Positions 1-6,710 of a stretch of 24,677 nt of DNA are shown one piece after another. The DNA comes from a virus. Both the position numbers and the translations under genes were made by a program. Numbering within the stretch: position 1 is the stretch's first letter; each line of letters begins with the position of its first letter. The stretch is taken from positions 1 through 24,677 of IMG/VR virus record IMGVR_UViG_3300047472_000001; one strand, given 5' to 3'. The notes beneath the pieces were generated by a model. The model saw only the letters and a program-made list of their open reading frames with translations, did not search any database and was not told the DNA's origin.

Positions 1-90
1 AGGACGCCGACCGGTACGTGATAGCCGCTGAGATCGCGCCACAGTTCCAGGGTCGATCAGGGGGAGGGGGAGCTGGCGCTCACCGAGGCC

Positions 91-106
91 GTTGCACCAT
101 CGTTAC
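91..106. promoter_or_regulatory. Operator-like site GTAAC-N4-GTGCAA (on minus strand)
   Basis: Read on the minus strand, this site is GTAAC, GATG, GTGCAA. It nearly matches the site at 24061-24075 (GTAAC, GAT, GTGCAA), differing by one inserted base. It lies just downstream of the minus-strand gene at 125-319. Binding by a phage repressor is inferred from this recurrence, not shown. Confidence 0.35.
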
Positions 107-124
107 CCCAGGTCAGCGGCGAGA

Positions 125-319
125 TCAGGCTGGGAAGGGACGCCCTTCGGCTGCCGCGTCCCAGTGATCAGGAGTGAGGGCATCCTCCCCGTGCTCAGCG
201 GCGAAGGACTGGATGCGTCCGAGCGGTGAGTCGGCTGACGCAGGCCCCTCGCTCACGATGCCGCCGAGCATCTGGGCAGCGAACTCCGCGCCGATCTCCT
301 GGGCCGTCTTCTCCTCCAT
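125..319 (-). CDS. Small acidic hypothetical protein (64 aa)
   Basis: I do not recognise this protein. It is 64 residues, begins MEEKTAQEIGAEFAAQMLGG and ends in a short Asp/Glu/Ala-rich stretch with a DHWDAA motif. Codon use is typical of the rest of the phage (mostly G or C in third positions), which supports real coding. The ATG at 319 has no clear Shine-Dalgarno upstream; a GGAGGAG lies just inside the coding sequence instead. It is divergent from the gene starting at 334, with only 14 bases between the two start codons, so one or both may be translated from leaderless mRNA. No membrane segment, signal peptide or known domain is visible. It could be a regulator or host-takeover peptide, but nothing in the sequence shows that. 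Confidence 0.5.
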   Translation of the reverse strand: MEEKTAQEIGAEFAAQMLGGIVSEGPASADSPLGRIQSFAAEHGEDALTPDHWDAAAEGRPFPA

Positions 320-333
320 GGGACCAGCGTACC

Positions 334-537
334 GTGAGCACCGTGGGCGATCCGCTCCAGCTCCTGCACGACGTGCTCGGTGCCGAGGTCATCGAGGTAG
401 CCACGTCGCCGCCTCCCGCCCTGTCGGGTACTGGTGGAGCTCCTGGTCCAGAGGAGATCTCCGAGGCTCGTCAGGAGCTGCACAGCGCCGAGGTGCTGGA
501 AGAGATCCCCGAGCTCCCGGACGATGACGAGGCTTGA
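334..537 (+). CDS. Small acidic hypothetical protein (67 aa)
   Basis: This 67-residue protein is not recognised. It starts at GTG 334 (VSTVGDPLQLLHDVLG). After a Pro/Gly-rich middle it ends in a strongly acidic tail (EIPELPDDDEA). Codon use is coding-like from the GTG onward, whereas the open frame upstream of it (from 226) is Arg/Pro-rich noise opposite the minus-strand gene, which is why I chose this start. There is no good Shine-Dalgarno. It is followed by a hairpin-rich stretch with no gene. The acidic tail would fit a small DNA-mimic or adaptor protein, but this is only a compositional resemblance. Confidence 0.45.
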   Translation: MSTVGDPLQLLHDVLGAEVIEVATSPPPALSGTGGAPGPEEISEARQELHSAEVLEEIPELPDDDEA

Positions 538-560
538 CGCTCAGCCGTCTTCGTTCACTG

Positions 561-576
561 CCGGGCGACAGCCCGG
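561..576. other. Small hairpin CCGGGC-GACA-GCCCGG
   Basis: A perfect 6-bp stem closes a GACA loop 23 bases after the stop of the 334-537 gene. It may act with the stronger hairpin at 630-646 to end that transcript. Confidence 0.4.
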
Positions 577-629
577 ACCCAGCCCGCTTCGCTCGCTGAG
601 CCCTTCGCCGCTGCGTGTCTTCGACAGGT

Positions 630-646
630 GGGGGGCTCCGCCCCCC
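630..646. terminator. GC-rich terminator hairpin after the left small gene
   Basis: GGGGGGC and GCCCCCC pair over a TCC loop, a perfect 7-bp stem. There is no T tract, as is usual for actinobacterial terminators. It would separate the 334-537 gene from the late operon. Confidence 0.5.
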
Positions 647-735
647 TACTTCACCTCGCCGTCGAACCTCACTGTGTAGGTGTGAGCCAGGTCACAAGAA
701 GAAGCCCGCAACAAGGCTGAGGGGGTCCGCGTCTC

Positions 736-741
736 TATAAA
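736..741 (+). promoter_or_regulatory. Candidate -10 box TATAAA
   Basis: TATAAA is an unusually AT-rich hexamer for this genome and matches the -10 consensus at five of six bases. No convincing -35 lies 16-18 bases upstream (AAGGCT or similar). It is embedded in CTCTA-TAA-ACGTAGAGG, a degenerate version of the palindrome at 863-876, so a repressor could occlude it. Confidence 0.3.
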
Positions 742-770
742 CGTAGAGGGCTAGCGCCAAGCGAGATGTT

Positions 771-860
771 GGAGCCTGTCGGCTCCACTTCACGAAGACG
801 AAGTACGTCAGTGCAAGTGGTGGGCCTGTCGGCCCCGCTTGTCGAAGACGTACTTGCACT
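771..860 (+). repeat. Two 27-bp direct repeats, exactly 50 bp apart, each with a TGTC-loop hairpin
   Basis: Positions 774-800 and 824-850 match at 23 of 27 bases. Each copy carries a hairpin with loop TGTC: GGAGCC/GGCTCC at 771-786 and GGGCC/GGCCC at 822-835. The A-T pair 773-784 in copy 1 is a G-C pair (823-834) in copy 2, a compensatory change that suggests the RNA or cruciform structure matters. AGTGCAAGT at 810-818 is inverted at 852-860 and could fold the second hairpin into a larger stem. The sequence does not fix the function. Confidence 0.6.
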
Positions 861-862
861 TG

Positions 863-876
863 CCTCTACGTAGAGG
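863..876. promoter_or_regulatory. Perfect 14-bp palindrome CCTCTACGTAGAGG
   Basis: This is a perfect dyad. The half-site ACGTAGAGG recurs at 741-749, so the two copies frame the hairpin repeat at about 130 bp distance. It could be a dimeric repressor operator or, in RNA, a 5-bp hairpin with an ACGT loop. Confidence 0.45.
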
Positions 877-885
877 ACAGAGACT

Positions 886-944
886 GCCCCCGAGTCGACA
901 GCTACGAGCAGCTTGGTGCACGCACCAAGGACGTCGTCGGGGGC
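886..944 (+). terminator. Nested hairpin upstream of HNH gene (terminator or leader structure)
   Basis: The outer arms GCCCCCGA (886-893) and TCGGGGGC (937-944) pair perfectly. They enclose a second perfect stem, CTTGGTG (912-918) with CACCAAG (923-929) over a CACG loop. The outer stem is followed by TTC. It ends 16 bases before the HNH ribosome-binding site, so it could terminate a short upstream RNA or control read-through into the packaging genes. Confidence 0.45.
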
Positions 945-970
945 TTCAGCTTCCACGTCGGGAGGTGCGC

Positions 971-1285
971 GTGAGCGGATGGCAGAACAGCAACCGGAGG
1001 GACAGACTTCCCCCGGACTGGTTCAAGATCCGGGCACGGGTACTTCGGCGAGACGGTCACACATGCACTCACCGCGACGCGAACGGCATCAGATGCACCG
1101 ACCTCGCAACCGACGTGGACCACATCAAGCCTGGCGATGACCACAGCATGGAGAACCTGCGGGCTCTCTGCTCCTGGCATCACGGGAAGAAGTCCGGCGC
1201 TGAAGGCGCAGCCGCGAAGGCTGCGAACTGGCGACGGCAAGACAGGAAGTTCAGGCGGTCGGAAGACCACCCCGGACTTCTCTGA
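971..1285 (+). CDS. HNH endonuclease (packaging-associated)
   Basis: This 104-residue protein carries a clear HNH/treble-clef core: C32, C42, the DVDHI motif with D50-H51, N62, then C67-x2-H70-H71 followed by GKKSG. H51, N62 and H71 are the expected catalytic and metal-binding residues; C67 and H70, with C32 or C42, would form the zinc knuckle. GTG 971 is chosen because GGAGG at 961-965 sits 5 bases upstream; the open frame continues back to 839 but without typical codons. In HK97-type cos phages an HNH nuclease next to the terminase genes assists genome-end cleavage. The position here, ahead of both terminase subunits, fits that role, although a homing-type HNH is possible. Confidence 0.9.
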   Translation: MSGWQNSNRRDRLPPDWFKIRARVLRRDGHTCTHRDANGIRCTDLATDVDHIKPGDDHSMENLRALCSWHHGKKSGAEGAAAKAANWRRQDRKFRRSEDHPGLL

Positions 1286-1372
1286 GAACGCGGCTGCTCC
1301 TGGGGCCCTCTCCCCCGGTCGAGCGGCTGCTTGGCGTGTTCCCCGTCCTCCTCTCCGGGTCGAGCGCGCCTC

Positions 1373-1398
1373 GCCCCCTGGCCGAACTACCAGGGGGC
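1373..1398. terminator. Hairpin between HNH and membrane-protein genes
   Basis: GCCCCCTGG (1373-1381) and CCAGGGGGC (1390-1398) form a perfect 9-bp stem with an 8-base loop, followed by TTGAC. The 139-base gap 1286-1424 holds nothing else convincing, apart from two copies of GGTCGAGCG. Confidence 0.55.
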
Positions 1399-1424
1399 TT
1401 GACTTCGATGGAAGGCGGTAACCA

Positions 1425-1655
1425 GTGAGCATCTGGACCTGGCTCTGGATCGGCTGGCTCGCAGCCTTCCTGGGCATCGAGGGCGTCGCCCTGTTCAACA
1501 AGAGCAAGGACGACACCCTCTCCGAGCACGTCTGGAAGTGGTTCGGCACCTCGAAGCTGGAGAAGCCCTCGGGCTGGGTCCGGCTGCGGCGCTTCACCCT
1601 CCTCGCCTTCATGGCGTGGCTGTCGGTGCACTTCCTGACGGGCGGCATCTTCTGA
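1425..1655 (+). CDS. Small membrane protein with two hydrophobic spans
   Basis: This 76-residue protein has an N-terminal hydrophobic span (about residues 3-23, WTWLWIGWLAAFLGIEGVALF) and a second near the C-terminus (about 57-74). A charged stretch containing KDD, HVWKWFG and basic residues lies between them. GTG 1425 is preceded by GGAAGGCGG. Its stop overlaps the next ATG by one base (TGATG), so the two genes are probably translationally coupled. Small two-span proteins are common in this position in actinophages, but I know of no established function. Membrane location is predicted from hydrophobicity only. Confidence 0.7.
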   Translation: MSIWTWLWIGWLAAFLGIEGVALFNKSKDDTLSEHVWKWFGTSKLEKPSGWVRLRRFTLLAFMAWLSVHFLTGGIF

Positions 1656-2026
1656 TGTGGGACCGGCGTGCGTACGTCGAGGCCGTCAAGGACGGCGACA
1701 CCCTGGAGGTGCGGCTCGACCAGGGCTTCGGTGACACGAAGACCCTGGCGCTGCGCCTCTACTCCACGTTCGCTCCCGAGCACGACGAGCCGGGCGGCAA
1801 GGAGACCCGCGACTTCGTCCTGGACTGGCTGAACCACGCCGATCCGGACGGCGACGAGTGGCCCTTCGTGGTCACCACGGTGCGGATCAAGTCCGGCGCA
1901 CATGAGGTGACCACCCTCGGGCGCTACGTCGGCATCCTGCACGACGTCGAGGGGCGCTGCCTCAACGACGACATCAACGACTTCGTAGCCAAGAAGGGCT
2001 ACGGACGCGGCATCGGTAGCAAGTAG
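1655..2026 (+). CDS. Staphylococcal nuclease-like (TNase-fold) protein
   Basis: The 123-residue protein follows the pattern of the thermonuclease OB-fold family. It has VKDGDTLEVRL near the N-terminus (D15 matches D21 of staphylococcal nuclease), RLYSTFAPE (R34 and E42 match R35 and E43) and LGRYVGIL (R90 matches R87), ending in the family-like LNDDINDFVAKKGYG. The position of the calcium ligand D40 is Phe (F39), so metal binding may differ or activity may be lost. The start ATG overlaps the upstream stop. It lies directly before the terminases, suggesting a role linked to DNA packaging or degradation of host DNA, but this is inferred. The alignment was made by eye. Confidence 0.65.
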   Translation: MWDRRAYVEAVKDGDTLEVRLDQGFGDTKTLALRLYSTFAPEHDEPGGKETRDFVLDWLNHADPDGDEWPFVVTTVRIKSGAHEVTTLGRYVGILHDVEGRCLNDDINDFVAKKGYGRGIGSK

Positions 2027-2038
2027 GAGGTGAGCCAG

Positions 2039-2467
2039 GTGCCAGGACCCGTACCCAACCGAGAAGCCGACCTGGCTCGCCCCCGCGAGCGCAAGGGGTC
2101 GGACGTTCAGCCCGTGACCCGAGGCGAGATGCGGCCCACGAAGATCCCGAACGCGGATCGAGAGTGGCACCCCATCGCCCGGCGTCTGTGGGACTCCCTG
2201 AAGACGTCCGGCCAAGCCGACTTCTACCAGAACAGCGACTGGGCCTTCGCCTACTCGCTGTGTGAAGACCTCTCCGTCTACAAGAAGTCGGGGAAGCGCA
2301 GCGGCCAGATGCTCCAGACCATCTACTCCAGCTTCGAGCGACTGCTCGTTGCGGAGGGCGACCGACGTCGTGTCCGCATCGAACTGCATGAGCCCGAGGA
2401 CGAGGGAGACACCGCGTCCGTGGTCGCCATCGCCGACTACAAGAAGGAGCTGGGGCTCGCCGAGTAA
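2039..2467 (+). CDS. Terminase small subunit
   Basis: This 142-residue protein begins VPGPVPNREADLARPRERKG and contains a WHPIARRLWDSLKTSGQADFYQNSDWAFAY region. Both are typical of the P27-like small terminase family of actinophages. It recognises the packaging site and recruits the large subunit. GTG 2039 is preferred over the in-frame GTG at 2030 because GGAGG (2026-2030) lies 8 bases before 2039 and overlaps 2030. The basic N-terminus could contribute to DNA binding and the helical C-terminal part to oligomerisation. It is followed within 14 bases by the large subunit. Confidence 0.85.
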   Translation: MPGPVPNREADLARPRERKGSDVQPVTRGEMRPTKIPNADREWHPIARRLWDSLKTSGQADFYQNSDWAFAYSLCEDLSVYKKSGKRSGQMLQTIYSSFERLLVAEGDRRRVRIELHEPEDEGDTASVVAIADYKKELGLAE

Positions 2468-2481
2468 CGGAGGTGAGCCTC

Positions 2482-4128
2482 ATGATGGCCAAGCCGGTCA
2501 TGACGACCGAGGAGATCGAAGCCCTCGAACCGGAGTTCCACGGTCCTACGTGGATGCGGAACGAGGACGGCTCCTGGGTCCTGCCCGAGCGCACGCTCGG
2601 CTGGCAGATCGCAGGCTGGTGCGCTGAGTACCTGAACGCCGAGAACGGCGGTCCCTGGCGGTTCACGAAGGAGCAGCTTCGCTTCGTCCTGTGGTGGTAC
2701 GCCATGGACGAGACGGGTCGCTTCGTGTACCGCAAGGGCGTACTCCAGCGCCTGAAGGGCTGGGGCAAGGACCCGCTCCTCGCCGTGATCTGCCTGGTCG
2801 AGTTCGTCGGGCCGTCGCGCTTCTCCCACTGGGATGCCAACGGTGACCCTGTCGGCGTACCTCACCCGCAGGCGTGGGTGCAGATCGCTGCCGTGTCTCG
2901 GGATCAGACCCGGAACACGATGACTCTGATGCCGTCGCTCATGTCGGACAAGCTCATCAACACCTACGGCATCAAGGCCGGGGCCGAGCTGATCCGAGCG
3001 AACGGCGGACGTCAACGGCTCGAAGCCGTGACCTCCAGCTTCCGTGCTCTTGAAGGTGGCCGGTCCACCTTCGTCGTGCTGAACGAGACCCATCACTGGG
3101 TCCGAGGCAACAACGGCGACAAGATGTACGAGACGATCGACGGTAACGCGACCAAGAAGGACGCGCGCTACCTGGCGATCACCAACGCCTACCTGCCCGG
3201 CGAGGACTCTGTCGCTGAGCGGATGCGGGAAGCGTTCGAGAAGATCCGCGAGGGTCGAGCTCTGGACATCGGCTTCCTGTACGACTCGATCGAGGCGCAC
3301 CCGAAGACACCCCTCTCCCCCGAGGCGCTGCGCATCGTCCTCCCCAAGATCCGGGGAGACGCGATCTGGCTGAAGGTGGAGACCATCATCCAGTCCGTGC
3401 TCGACACGACGCTCTCCGCGAGCCGGTCTCGACGCATGTGGCTCAACCAGATCGTGGCTGAGGAAGACGCCCTCTACGGCCCTGCCGAGTGGGACGTGCT
3501 CCGCGACGAGCGCCTGACACTGAAGCCCGGTGACGAGATCACCCTGGGCTTCGACGGTGGCAAGACCGACGACGCAACCGCCCTGGTGGCGGTCCGCGTC
3601 AAGGACATGGCCTCGTTCGTGCTCGGGATCTGGGAGAAGCCAGACGGTCAGGCCGGTGACGGGTGGATCGTGCCTCGCGCTGCCGTCGACTCGGCGGTGC
3701 ACGACGCCTTCCAGACCTTCACGGTCGTCGGCTTCTTCGCCGACGTCGCCCTCTGGGAGTCCTACATCTCCGAGTGGGATGACGCCTACGGCGAGAGCCT
3801 GTCGGTCAAGTCCCCCCTCGGGAAGGACTCGATCGGCTGGGACATGCGTGCGTCGCAGAAGACGTCGACCATGGCCCACGAACGCCTGATGCGCTCGGTC
3901 TTCGACAAGAAGCTGAAGCACGACGGTGACCTGACCCTGCGACGCCACGCCCTCAACGCGCGCCGGGCGACGAACAACTACGGCATCGGCTTCCGCAAGG
4001 AGAGCAAGGACTCTCCTCGCAAGGTCGACGCCTACGCCGCCCTGATGCTGGCGCATGAGGCGCTGGTCGAGCTCCGAGCTCGCGGCAAGAAGACCAAGAA
4101 GCGGACCGGTCGCGGGTACTTCCTGTGA
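2482..4128 (+). CDS. Terminase large subunit (packaging ATPase and nuclease)
   Basis: 548 residues, the usual length. The ATPase domain has an atypical Walker A, LKGWGKD (residues 91-97), and a Walker B-like FVVLNETHHW (197-206) where N201-E202 replace the usual D-E. The C-terminal RNase H-like nuclease starts with LGFDGGKTDD (D358), and a late acidic residue lies in KVDAYAALML (D516). The enzyme pumps DNA into the prohead through the portal and cuts concatemers. ATG 2482 is chosen because GGAGG (2469-2473) lies 8 bases upstream; the in-frame GTG 2473 overlaps that site. The motif variants are shared by many actinophage terminases as far as I recall. Confidence 0.95.
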   Translation: MMAKPVMTTEEIEALEPEFHGPTWMRNEDGSWVLPERTLGWQIAGWCAEYLNAENGGPWRFTKEQLRFVLWWYAMDETGRFVYRKGVLQRLKGWGKDPLLAVICLVEFVGPSRFSHWDANGDPVGVPHPQAWVQIAAVSRDQTRNTMTLMPSLMSDKLINTYGIKAGAELIRANGGRQRLEAVTSSFRALEGGRSTFVVLNETHHWVRGNNGDKMYETIDGNATKKDARYLAITNAYLPGEDSVAERMREAFEKIREGRALDIGFLYDSIEAHPKTPLSPEALRIVLPKIRGDAIWLKVETIIQSVLDTTLSASRSRRMWLNQIVAEEDALYGPAEWDVLRDERLTLKPGDEITLGFDGGKTDDATALVAVRVKDMASFVLGIWEKPDGQAGDGWIVPRAAVDSAVHDAFQTFTVVGFFADVALWESYISEWDDAYGESLSVKSPLGKDSIGWDMRASQKTSTMAHERLMRSVFDKKLKHDGDLTLRRHALNARRATNNYGIGFRKESKDSPRKVDAYAALMLAHEALVELRARGKKTKKRTGRGYFL

Positions 4129-4158
4129 CAGTGAGACCAACGGAAGGACGGTGGGCCT

Positions 4159-5592
4159 GTGGCTGACACCTCCCCGGCGTCGCTGGCCAAGCAGCTCCTC
4201 GCGATCCTTCATCGGGACGGCGACCGGCTGCGACGCATCGACGCCTACAACCAGGGCAAGCATGACGACCCCTACATGCCGCCCCAGGCGGACGACGAGT
4301 ACCGGCTACTGGCCCGGAGGGCAGTGTCCAACTGGATGCCCCTCCTGGTCGGCACACCGGCTCAGGCTCTGTACGTCGATGGCTTCCGTCGAGGACAACT
4401 CGGCGAGACCATCGCAACTTCCGAGCCTGAGTCCGCGTCTCTGGAGTGGAAGCACTGGCAGCGGTCGCGGCTCGACGCCCGGCAGTCTGCGGTGTACCGG
4501 GGCGCGCTGGCCTTCGGTCACAGCTTCACGCTGACCGAGAAGACCAAGAAGGGCGTCATCACCAAGGGCCTGTCGGCCATGCGGACCGCTGCCCTGTTCG
4601 AGGACCCGGCGAACGACGACACGCCCTACGCGGCGTTGACCGTCACGGCCTGGGCCAAGGATGACGTCCCCGGCAAGGCTCGCCTGTTCGACGGCAAGTC
4701 CGAGTACCAGGTCACCTTCAAGTCCCTCTCGGACCTGAAGGGTGTGACAGTGGGTGCGGGCAAGCGTCACGGCGCGAGCGAGTGTCCGGTCACCCGGTTC
4801 GCTGCGTCGGTCGACCTCGAAGGCCGTACGACCGGCGTGATCGAGCCGATGATCGCGCTTCAGAACCGCATCAACCAGACCATCTTCGATCTCCTGGTCG
4901 CCCAGACGTACACCTCGCATGAGGTGCGGTACGCGACCGGCATGGCCCCTCCCATCGAGCGGGACGAGAACGGCGATCCGGTCCTGGATGAGAACGGCCA
5001 GCCCAAGGCCATCCCGATGAACCACAACTCCCGGCGCTTCCTGTTCGCCGAGGACGCGGACGTGAAGTTCGGCTCACTGCCGGGCGGTCCGATCGGTGGC
5101 CTCATCGAGTCCGTCGACATGAGCATCCGACACCTCGCGGCTGTCTCTCAGACGCCGCCGCACCACCTGCTGGGTCAGATCGCGAACCTCTCTGCTGAGG
5201 CTCTGCTCGCTGCCGAGACTGCGCTGTCGCGCAAGATCGCGGAGTTCCGGGCGTCCTTCGGTGAGAGCTGGGAGCGCGTGATGCGCCTGGCTGGGGAGAT
5301 GGAGGGCGACATCACCTCTGCTGAGGACTTCGCTGGCGAGGTCATCTGGCGGGACATGGAGCAGCGTTCGCTGGCTCAGGCCGCTGACGCTCTCGGCAAG
5401 CTGAAGGAACAGCTCGGCATCCCTGCCCGTGGTCTGTGGAAGCGCGTGCCTGGGGTCACCCAGACCGAGCTCGAAGACTGGGAGTCGATGCGCGAGGACG
5501 ATGACCCCATCGGTCAGCTCGCCTCCTCGATCACCCGTGCAACCCCTGACCCGACGCCGATCTCCGCTACCCCGGAGGTGGCTGTCGAGTGA
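4159..5592 (+). CDS. Portal protein (SPP1 gp6-like)
   Basis: 477 residues, starting at GTG 4159 after GGAAGGA. Recognisable parts are RRAVSNWMPLLVGTPAQALY near the N-terminus, the LQNRINQTIFDLLVAQ helix in the middle, and SQTPPHHLLGQIANLSAEAL followed by a long helix ending in WERVMRLAGEM. These match the SPP1-type portal family. Twelve copies would form the ring at the capsid vertex through which the terminase packages DNA. The C-terminal 50 residues are acidic and Pro/Thr-rich. The stop overlaps the next start (GTGA), indicating coupling with the MuF-like gene. Confidence 0.92.
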   Translation: MADTSPASLAKQLLAILHRDGDRLRRIDAYNQGKHDDPYMPPQADDEYRLLARRAVSNWMPLLVGTPAQALYVDGFRRGQLGETIATSEPESASLEWKHWQRSRLDARQSAVYRGALAFGHSFTLTEKTKKGVITKGLSAMRTAALFEDPANDDTPYAALTVTAWAKDDVPGKARLFDGKSEYQVTFKSLSDLKGVTVGAGKRHGASECPVTRFAASVDLEGRTTGVIEPMIALQNRINQTIFDLLVAQTYTSHEVRYATGMAPPIERDENGDPVLDENGQPKAIPMNHNSRRFLFAEDADVKFGSLPGGPIGGLIESVDMSIRHLAAVSQTPPHHLLGQIANLSAEALLAAETALSRKIAEFRASFGESWERVMRLAGEMEGDITSAEDFAGEVIWRDMEQRSLAQAADALGKLKEQLGIPARGLWKRVPGVTQTELEDWESMREDDDPIGQLASSITRATPDPTPISATPEVAVE

Positions 5593-6710
5593 CGACTGCT
5601 TCTCGCGCCAAGGAGGCCGAGGAAGCAAGCGTCGCGTTCCAGATCGCTCTCACCCAGATCGGCGTGAAGACGGTCGAGGAAGCACTGAAGTTGTGGGCCG
5701 AGGTCCCCGTTACCGCGCGGGCCTCGACCTCCAACTCCTGGCTGAAGAAGGCCATCACGATGGTGATGACCAGGCGGCGCATGAGCCGCGACCTGGCCAG
5801 GGCGTACTACCGGCTGGCCCGCGCACTGCGGACCGGCACGACCGTCGCTGATCCGTACCACCCCGAGCCCACCTACGTGACGCTCGACTCCCTACGTCGT
5901 GAGTTCGCCTCCCTGGCTGGAGGCTCTGAGCAGCCCCAGGAGGGCCGCACAGAGTCGGCCCCTACCGAGGAGACCAGCTCCGACTCCCAGCCCGCTCAGC
6001 CCCCCAAGGCGGACGGCCCTGACGCTCCTGCGGACGAAGACTCCGAGGACGCAGAGGCCGACCGCATCTTGGTCGAGGAGCTGGAGCGGCTGAAGGAGGA
6101 CGAGGAACGGATCGAGCGCGAGGCAGAGGCCGAGCTGAGGGAAGCCCTTCAGAACCTCGGACCCAACAACCTCGCGAAGAAGCAGCGCGACATCGACCCC
6201 GAGGCACCGGCCAAGGACGTGGACAGGCTCCGCGACGAGGCCCATGCCCAGGCTGGTGCTCGGCAAGCTGCGGCTGCGGAGCGCATCGCCATGAACGGCG
6301 GGCGCTCGACGGTCTGGAACCACGCTCAGCGCGACAAGCGAGCCATCGGCTACGTCCGACTCTCGCGCACCGGAACCCCCTGTGGGTGGTGCGCGATGTT
6401 GATCTCTCGCGGTGCTGTCTACAAGTCCAAGCACTCGGCTGAGTCCCGTGCTGGCGTCGCCAACTTCGGCGACGGAGACAAGTACCACGACAACTGCCAC
6501 TGCTACGCGGAGCCCGTGTTCTCCCCGGAGCAGTACCGCGACTCCCCCCTGTACGCCGTGAACCGGCGTTACGAGGAGTTGTGGCCCCAGGTGACCAAGG
6601 GACTCGGCGGCAAGTCCGCGATCTCCGCCTGGCGGCGCTTCATCCGCACGGAACAGCAAGCCGCTGCCCAGGAGGCGCGGCGATCCACAACGAGCGTCCA
6701 GGAGGCGTAA
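5589..6710 (+). CDS. MuF-like minor head protein
   Basis: This is a 373-residue protein in three parts. The helical N-terminus (about 1-110) is followed by a charged Pro/Glu/Ala-rich, probably coiled-coil middle (about 115-240). The C-terminal MuF-type domain has the paired metal-like motifs CGWC (residues 265-268) and YHDNCHC (299-305). MuF/SPP1 gp7 proteins are minor head proteins that bind the portal and may be ejected with DNA. GTG 5589 overlaps the portal stop, and GGAGG lies 10 bases upstream. No protease motif is visible in it, so I do not call it a protease fusion. Confidence 0.88.
   Translation: MTTASRAKEAEEASVAFQIALTQIGVKTVEEALKLWAEVPVTARASTSNSWLKKAITMVMTRRRMSRDLARAYYRLARALRTGTTVADPYHPEPTYVTLDSLRREFASLAGGSEQPQEGRTESAPTEETSSDSQPAQPPKADGPDAPADEDSEDAEADRILVEELERLKEDEERIEREAEAELREALQNLGPNNLAKKQRDIDPEAPAKDVDRLRDEAHAQAGARQAAAAERIAMNGGRSTVWNHAQRDKRAIGYVRLSRTGTPCGWCAMLISRGAVYKSKHSAESRAGVANFGDGDKYHDNCHCYAEPVFSPEQYRDSPLYAVNRRYEELWPQVTKGLGGKSAISAWRRFIRTEQQAAAQEARRSTTSVQEA

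Follow-up and report, generated by a model that had tools for sequence, protein, structure and literature searches.

The window analyzed here, that is, the whole stretch of 24,677 nt, represents the left end of the genome in a Streptomyces phage of Camvirus type and spans the cos junction; at least 80% of it is covered by 24 sequenced phage records. The junction lies at 9-36 (no strand assigned), where the right genome end GACCGGTACGTGAT (9-22) is joined to the left end AGCCGCTGAGATCG (from 23). The first base of relatives' records in several genera is the equivalent of window position 23, and the record of phage Pavo ends on the right with GACCGGTACGTGAT, matching 9-22. Beside the junction, AGCCGCTGAGATCGCGCCACAGTTCCAGGGTCGATCAG (23-60) is strongly conserved across genera and is a candidate terminase recognition site. 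On the + strand, the gene order is an HNH endonuclease of 104 aa (971-1285; phrog_333, E 1e-36, and relatives), a 76-aa protein, a nuclease, the small terminase (PF25673), the large terminase, portal, protease, scaffold and major head protein; a tRNA/tmRNA search returned no such gene within the window. The region at 732-944, just upstream of HNH, is probably the leader of this HNH/terminase operon. A sequence-only reading had proposed a structured RNA of about 200 nt in this role, and the strong covariation in related phages and the + strand polarity described below bear it out.

On the promoter side, the TATAAA box noted earlier is indeed present at 736-741 (+ strand), is the probable -10 element of the leader promoter, and has an AT-rich counterpart in relatives. 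Upstream of it lies a Crp-like palindrome, TGTGAGCCAGGTCACA (681-696, + strand; TGTGA-N5-GTCACA), an upstream operator conserved in relatives: 75 of 83 carry a site with 0-1 mismatch to TGTGA-N6-TCACA (in shuffled sequence the best site has 3.4 mismatches on average), and it is usually the sole such site in the genome. The AT-rich box follows the palindrome by about 38-40 nt in most relatives and by 34-35 nt in some, and transcription would start near 748, which therefore places the palindrome about 60 bp before the predicted start. A distance of about 60 bp upstream of the start is the usual class I activator site. The operator thus resembles Streptomyces Crp operators in this position and in its fit to the consensus GTG(N)6GNCAC, determined for S. 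coelicolor Crp by ChIP-chip (Gao et al. 2012, as cited in PMC10033298); Crp binding at 681-696 is putative, on a consensus match, and in vitro binding attempts with Streptomyces Crp were unsuccessful (PMC10033298). Ten phage records checked for a Crp protein had none above the cut-off, consistent with a host factor acting at the operator, and the literature searched contained no report of a Crp-controlled late promoter in a Streptomyces phage. A consensus scan of 1-6000 gave no sigma-70 consensus promoter. As a side observation, a conserved CTGTGCAAG-like stretch precedes the palindrome (within 672-696) and is perhaps a third half-site.

The leader has two parts, a fast-evolving domain of hairpin modules (742-876) and a compact, branched RNA (885-945; hereafter the junction RNA). 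The region 732-944 folds at -97 kcal/mol vs. -76.4 +/- 4.2 kcal/mol in shuffled sequences (z -4.95), with z values of -4.17 for 742-871 and -3.58 for 885-945 when folded alone. None of the Rfam 15 covariance models, including the pRNA family, matched at the gathering score, and a relaxed Rfam search over 560-1000 gave chance matches only (up to E 5). A protein-coding reading was rejected: the minus-strand ORF at 735-956 has no PHROG match, and the ORFs annotated at this place in relatives vary in strand and position. Term searches in the papers on phages Joe, Kamino and Amela/Verse returned nothing on the leader region, and the main text of Weinberg 2010 does not mention terminase.

The 5' domain, which separates the TATA box from the junction RNA, changes quickly in sequence and length. 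It is usually built from one or two modules inside a closing stem (P0), and each module consists of a hairpin and, after it, CGAAGACG or a near variant. Here, P0 is formed by CGTAGAGG (742-749) and 863-870, the latter lying inside the perfect palindrome CCTCTACGTAGAGG (863-876, + strand) that the earlier reading had recorded. Its two 27-nt direct repeats are likewise real (774-800 and 824-850; 85% identical, 50 nt apart), and each is overlapped by a TGTC hairpin, at 770-787 (TGGAGCC-TGTC-GGCTCCA) and 822-835 (GGGCC-TGTC-GGCCC), the two stems differing by the compensatory A-T to G-C change it described. With CGAAGACG at 793-800 and 843-850, these make up the two module copies (770-800 and 822-850, both + strand), and the fold encloses the second copy in a stem between AAGTACGTC (801-809) and 847-855. 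Both mutually exclusive pairings proposed for this domain exist in this sequence, i.e., AGTGCAAGT (810-818) with ACTTGCACT (852-860), or AAGTACGT (801-808) with ACGTACTT (848-855). Most two-module leaders of relatives again have the AAGTACGT/ACGTACTT-type stem around the second module, but a two-state switch is unsupported because the competing pairing is largely private to this phage and mostly absent from relatives. In 42 relatives, a perfect hairpin precedes 54 of 87 CGAAGACG-type motifs in the leader vs. 20 of 385 elsewhere (kinship ignored), and the closing stem is longer within than between phages (0 of 2000 permutations, a test that ignores shared ancestry). MAFFT misaligned the stems for a covariance model of the modules, and the module statistics were therefore computed by script.

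The junction RNA (885-945, + strand) is, on comparative grounds, conserved as an RNA, with its shape and not its sequence kept across many actinobacterial viruses. Its 61 nt fold into an outer stem of 8 bp (P1, 886-893/937-944), a GU bulge (894-895) that is invariant, a further stem of 4 bp (P2, 896-899/933-936) and, enclosed by P1/P2, two hairpins (P3, 901-903/907-909; P4, 912-918/923-929); P3 and P4 are not both essential, as several remote members retain one only. Position 944 is the 3' side of P1, with the ribosome-binding site of HNH 16 nt further on. When 31 relatives are aligned with MAFFT, standard pairs fill 96.9% of the pair cells, 13 of the 21 pairs have changed on both sides, and covarying cells number 86 vs. 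21 in shuffled alignments; if the partner is shifted by one to three columns, pairing falls to 33-58%. Among 64 distinct matches to the covariance model, an alignment that is fitted to the model and hence leans toward the structure, 96.2% of cells are paired, 16 pairs have changed on both sides, and the covarying cells are 220 vs. 67. The shuffle controls do not keep relatedness, so these counts are not probabilities; nonetheless, the effect size and the range of pair types make a chance origin implausible. Read on the + strand, G-U pairs outnumber A-C pairs 36 to 4, which assigns the RNA to the + strand. The nested, terminator-like stem that the sequence-only reading placed at 886-944 is present, but as part of a branched junction and with no T tract after it.

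The junction RNA is also closely tied to one gene. The covariance model built on it (R1) finds one strong match per phage genome, just upstream of HNH, and even weak matches (20-30 bits) in prophages of Lentzea, Kribbella, Cellulomonas, Paractinoplanes, Pilimelia and Saccharothrix nonetheless sit just before HNH. A script-based scan for the P1-GU-P2 core found it in 55 of 127 non-redundant windows upstream of HNH (about 52 without three probable artefacts, L104, L250 and L281) vs. 32 of 2391 windows drawn at random from these loci, while scans with other dinucleotide bulges gave 0-15 matches; the scan also added Salinispora (L158), Nocardioides (L202) and Actinorhabdospora (L203). An HNH-independent DNA-pattern search of viral contigs gave 79 stretches, and HNH directly follows the R1 match in each of those that have one (the HNH position in L107 was taken from a separate search). 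Nearly all members have 17-37 nt between the 3' end of the RNA and the start of HNH. Only two of 393 Streptomyces genomes carry the RNA, which rules out a host RNA and identifies it as phage-borne. The remaining 72 of the 127 HNH upstream windows, mostly of remote homologues, do not have the core, and hence the RNA is not essential to HNH; further, the link could merely reflect that HNH stands first in the operon. Prophages such as L070 and L068, whose large terminase is about 81% identical to the one here and whose first gene is not HNH, retain the operator, the TATA-like box and the two hairpin modules but have no junction RNA. The hairpin modules therefore go with the promoter, and the junction RNA with HNH as the first gene. 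By eye, the leader of L068 and L070 (about 2200-2500) runs into a cytosine methyltransferase-like gene rather than HNH.

Around and beyond the HNH start, several further elements were recorded. The Shine-Dalgarno sequence GGAGG (961-965, + strand) may pair with CTTCC at 950-954, a pairing available in 44 of 56 cases vs. 52% in shuffled sequence, i.e., little above chance, and absent in Likavirus; a hairpin that sequesters the Shine-Dalgarno sequence was thus rejected. Downstream of HNH are two tandem bipartite hairpins on the + strand (1290-1330, with a pyrimidine loop, and 1333-1370, with a TCCTCCTCTC loop), which share loops of the form YCCTCCTCTC, a 2-nt 3' bulge and CUC/GAG closing pairs. 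Much the same pyrimidine loop recurs after HNH in relatives on dozens of different stems, and this loop includes CCUCC, complementary to a Shine-Dalgarno sequence. A GC-rich hairpin, GCCCCCTGG...CCAGGGGGC, follows in the gap between HNH and the next gene (1373-1398, + strand) and recurs in relatives, with no T tract. In several relatives, tRNA genes lie shortly downstream of HNH (4356-4429 in L139, 4460-4538 in L138; also annotated in phiELB20, phiHau3 and phiScoe10), and type II hammerhead ribozymes above the Rfam gathering score are found on the minus strand within the Lentzea and Kribbella prophage regions (L139, 105-170; L138, 1089-1172).

Comparison of related genomes establishes that the RNA folds as described, on the + strand, that it occurs in a single copy at a fixed position just ahead of the HNH ribosome-binding site, and that the operator is conserved. 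A covarying + strand structure upstream of a gene, consistently linked to that one gene, is what a cis-acting leader looks like, and we favor, as the probable though by no means certain interpretation, that a structured leader RNA encoded in this region acts in cis to control how HNH, the first packaging gene, is expressed. Transcription would run left to right from the promoter with the TATA box at 736, with the operator upstream (681-696) bound by host Crp or another activator, and the leader would open the packaging operon. The 5' hairpin modules, as part of the promoter leader, may protect the transcript or help elongation. The junction RNA with its GU bulge may then serve as a protein-binding platform, or otherwise gate HNH expression, at the step of translation or elongation, its end 17-37 nt before the start codon being at the edge of the ribosome loading zone; gating is most likely to work through a bound protein because the bulge is kept while the stems change. 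The protein could be HNH itself, another phage protein or a host factor, and the effect would be to have the packaging nuclease made at the right time and dose. Such an arrangement resembles autoregulatory 5' UTR elements (e.g., ribosomal-protein leaders), which are structured, just upstream of the ribosome-binding site of the first gene and strictly gene-linked, but differs in that the downstream gene is a phage HNH nuclease and protein binding is putative.

The main rival to a cis-acting HNH leader is processive antitermination, in which the nascent leader would bind RNA polymerase, as the put RNA of phage HK022 does, or recruit a factor for read-through of the roughly 20-kb late operon. A compact, single-copy RNA of 61 nt with an invariant bulge, just past the probable promoter of a long gene cluster, would suit such a role, as would hairpin modules that remain with the promoter even where the first gene differs, and the GC hairpin after HNH. 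HK022 put, about 70 nt with two stem-loops, offers a parallel: putL follows closely on its promoter and has an effect over a distance of at least 10 kb (PMC9378689), and both are compact phage operon leader RNAs near a promoter with conserved unpaired residues. However, put consists of two adjacent stem-loops as the whole element and occurs at both early operons, whereas here the two hairpins sit inside a closing stem (P1/P2) and there is one junction RNA, at the packaging operon and tied to HNH. That tie, with the narrow distance to the ribosome-binding site and the absence where another gene comes first, counts against antitermination because an antiterminator would not need it, and 1-6000 holds no T-tract terminator on the + strand; we regard this role as possible but doubtful. 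It is improbable, in turn, that the stem at 886-944 is a terminator or attenuator that halts transcription before HNH unless relieved. The stem is stable and GC-rich (-31.9 kcal/mol) and directly precedes HNH, and actinobacterial terminators often lack U tracts, but the branched fold and the invariant GU bulge would be needless for termination, the GC stem is followed by no T tract and is not called by the consensus scan, and no conserved alternative pairing was found in relatives.

Two further explanations invoke packaging directly. A trans-acting packaging RNA of the terminase motor would fit a compact branched RNA near the packaged left end, beside the HNH and small and large terminase genes, and in its place near a genome end, its neighbors and its branched fold the junction RNA is similar to phi29 pRNA (Phage_pRNA). 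It differs in having no Rfam match, the pRNA family included, and in that phages with an about 80% identical large terminase are without it, two of them genome-wide, an observation that bears indirectly on whether the terminase needs it; its absence in prophages of the L070/L068 type argues against an obligatory packaging RNA, and the tie to the HNH ribosome-binding site suggests action in cis, which leaves this explanation very improbable. That the region works as DNA, as a cos or pac site, was also part of the sequence-only reading; in its favor are the short distance to the packaged end and the help that HNH proteins give to cos cleavage in other phages. Cleavage within 732-944 fails, however, because relatives' packaged ends join at window 22/23, about 710 bp away, and selection at the DNA level would not give G-U pairs on one strand only. 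No result speaks for a pac or terminase-recognition role. We consider a DNA site extremely improbable.

Returning to the cis-acting leader, a more specific version would have the HNH nuclease itself recognize the GU-bulge RNA, coupling packaging to HNH supply, while host Crp, acting at the operator, would adjust the operon to host development; this is speculative and, in our view, unlikely. More broadly, the junction RNA is a phage RNA motif new to Rfam, with strong covariation, that spans the Arquatrovirinae, is recognizable in prophages of several actinobacterial orders and keeps a fixed place before the packaging genes. For the control of packaging and structural genes in actinophages, the leader offers a defined RNA together with its promoter and a candidate regulator from the host, and Joe, phiCAM, Endor1 and Kamino are among the laboratory Streptomyces phages in which these can be tested.
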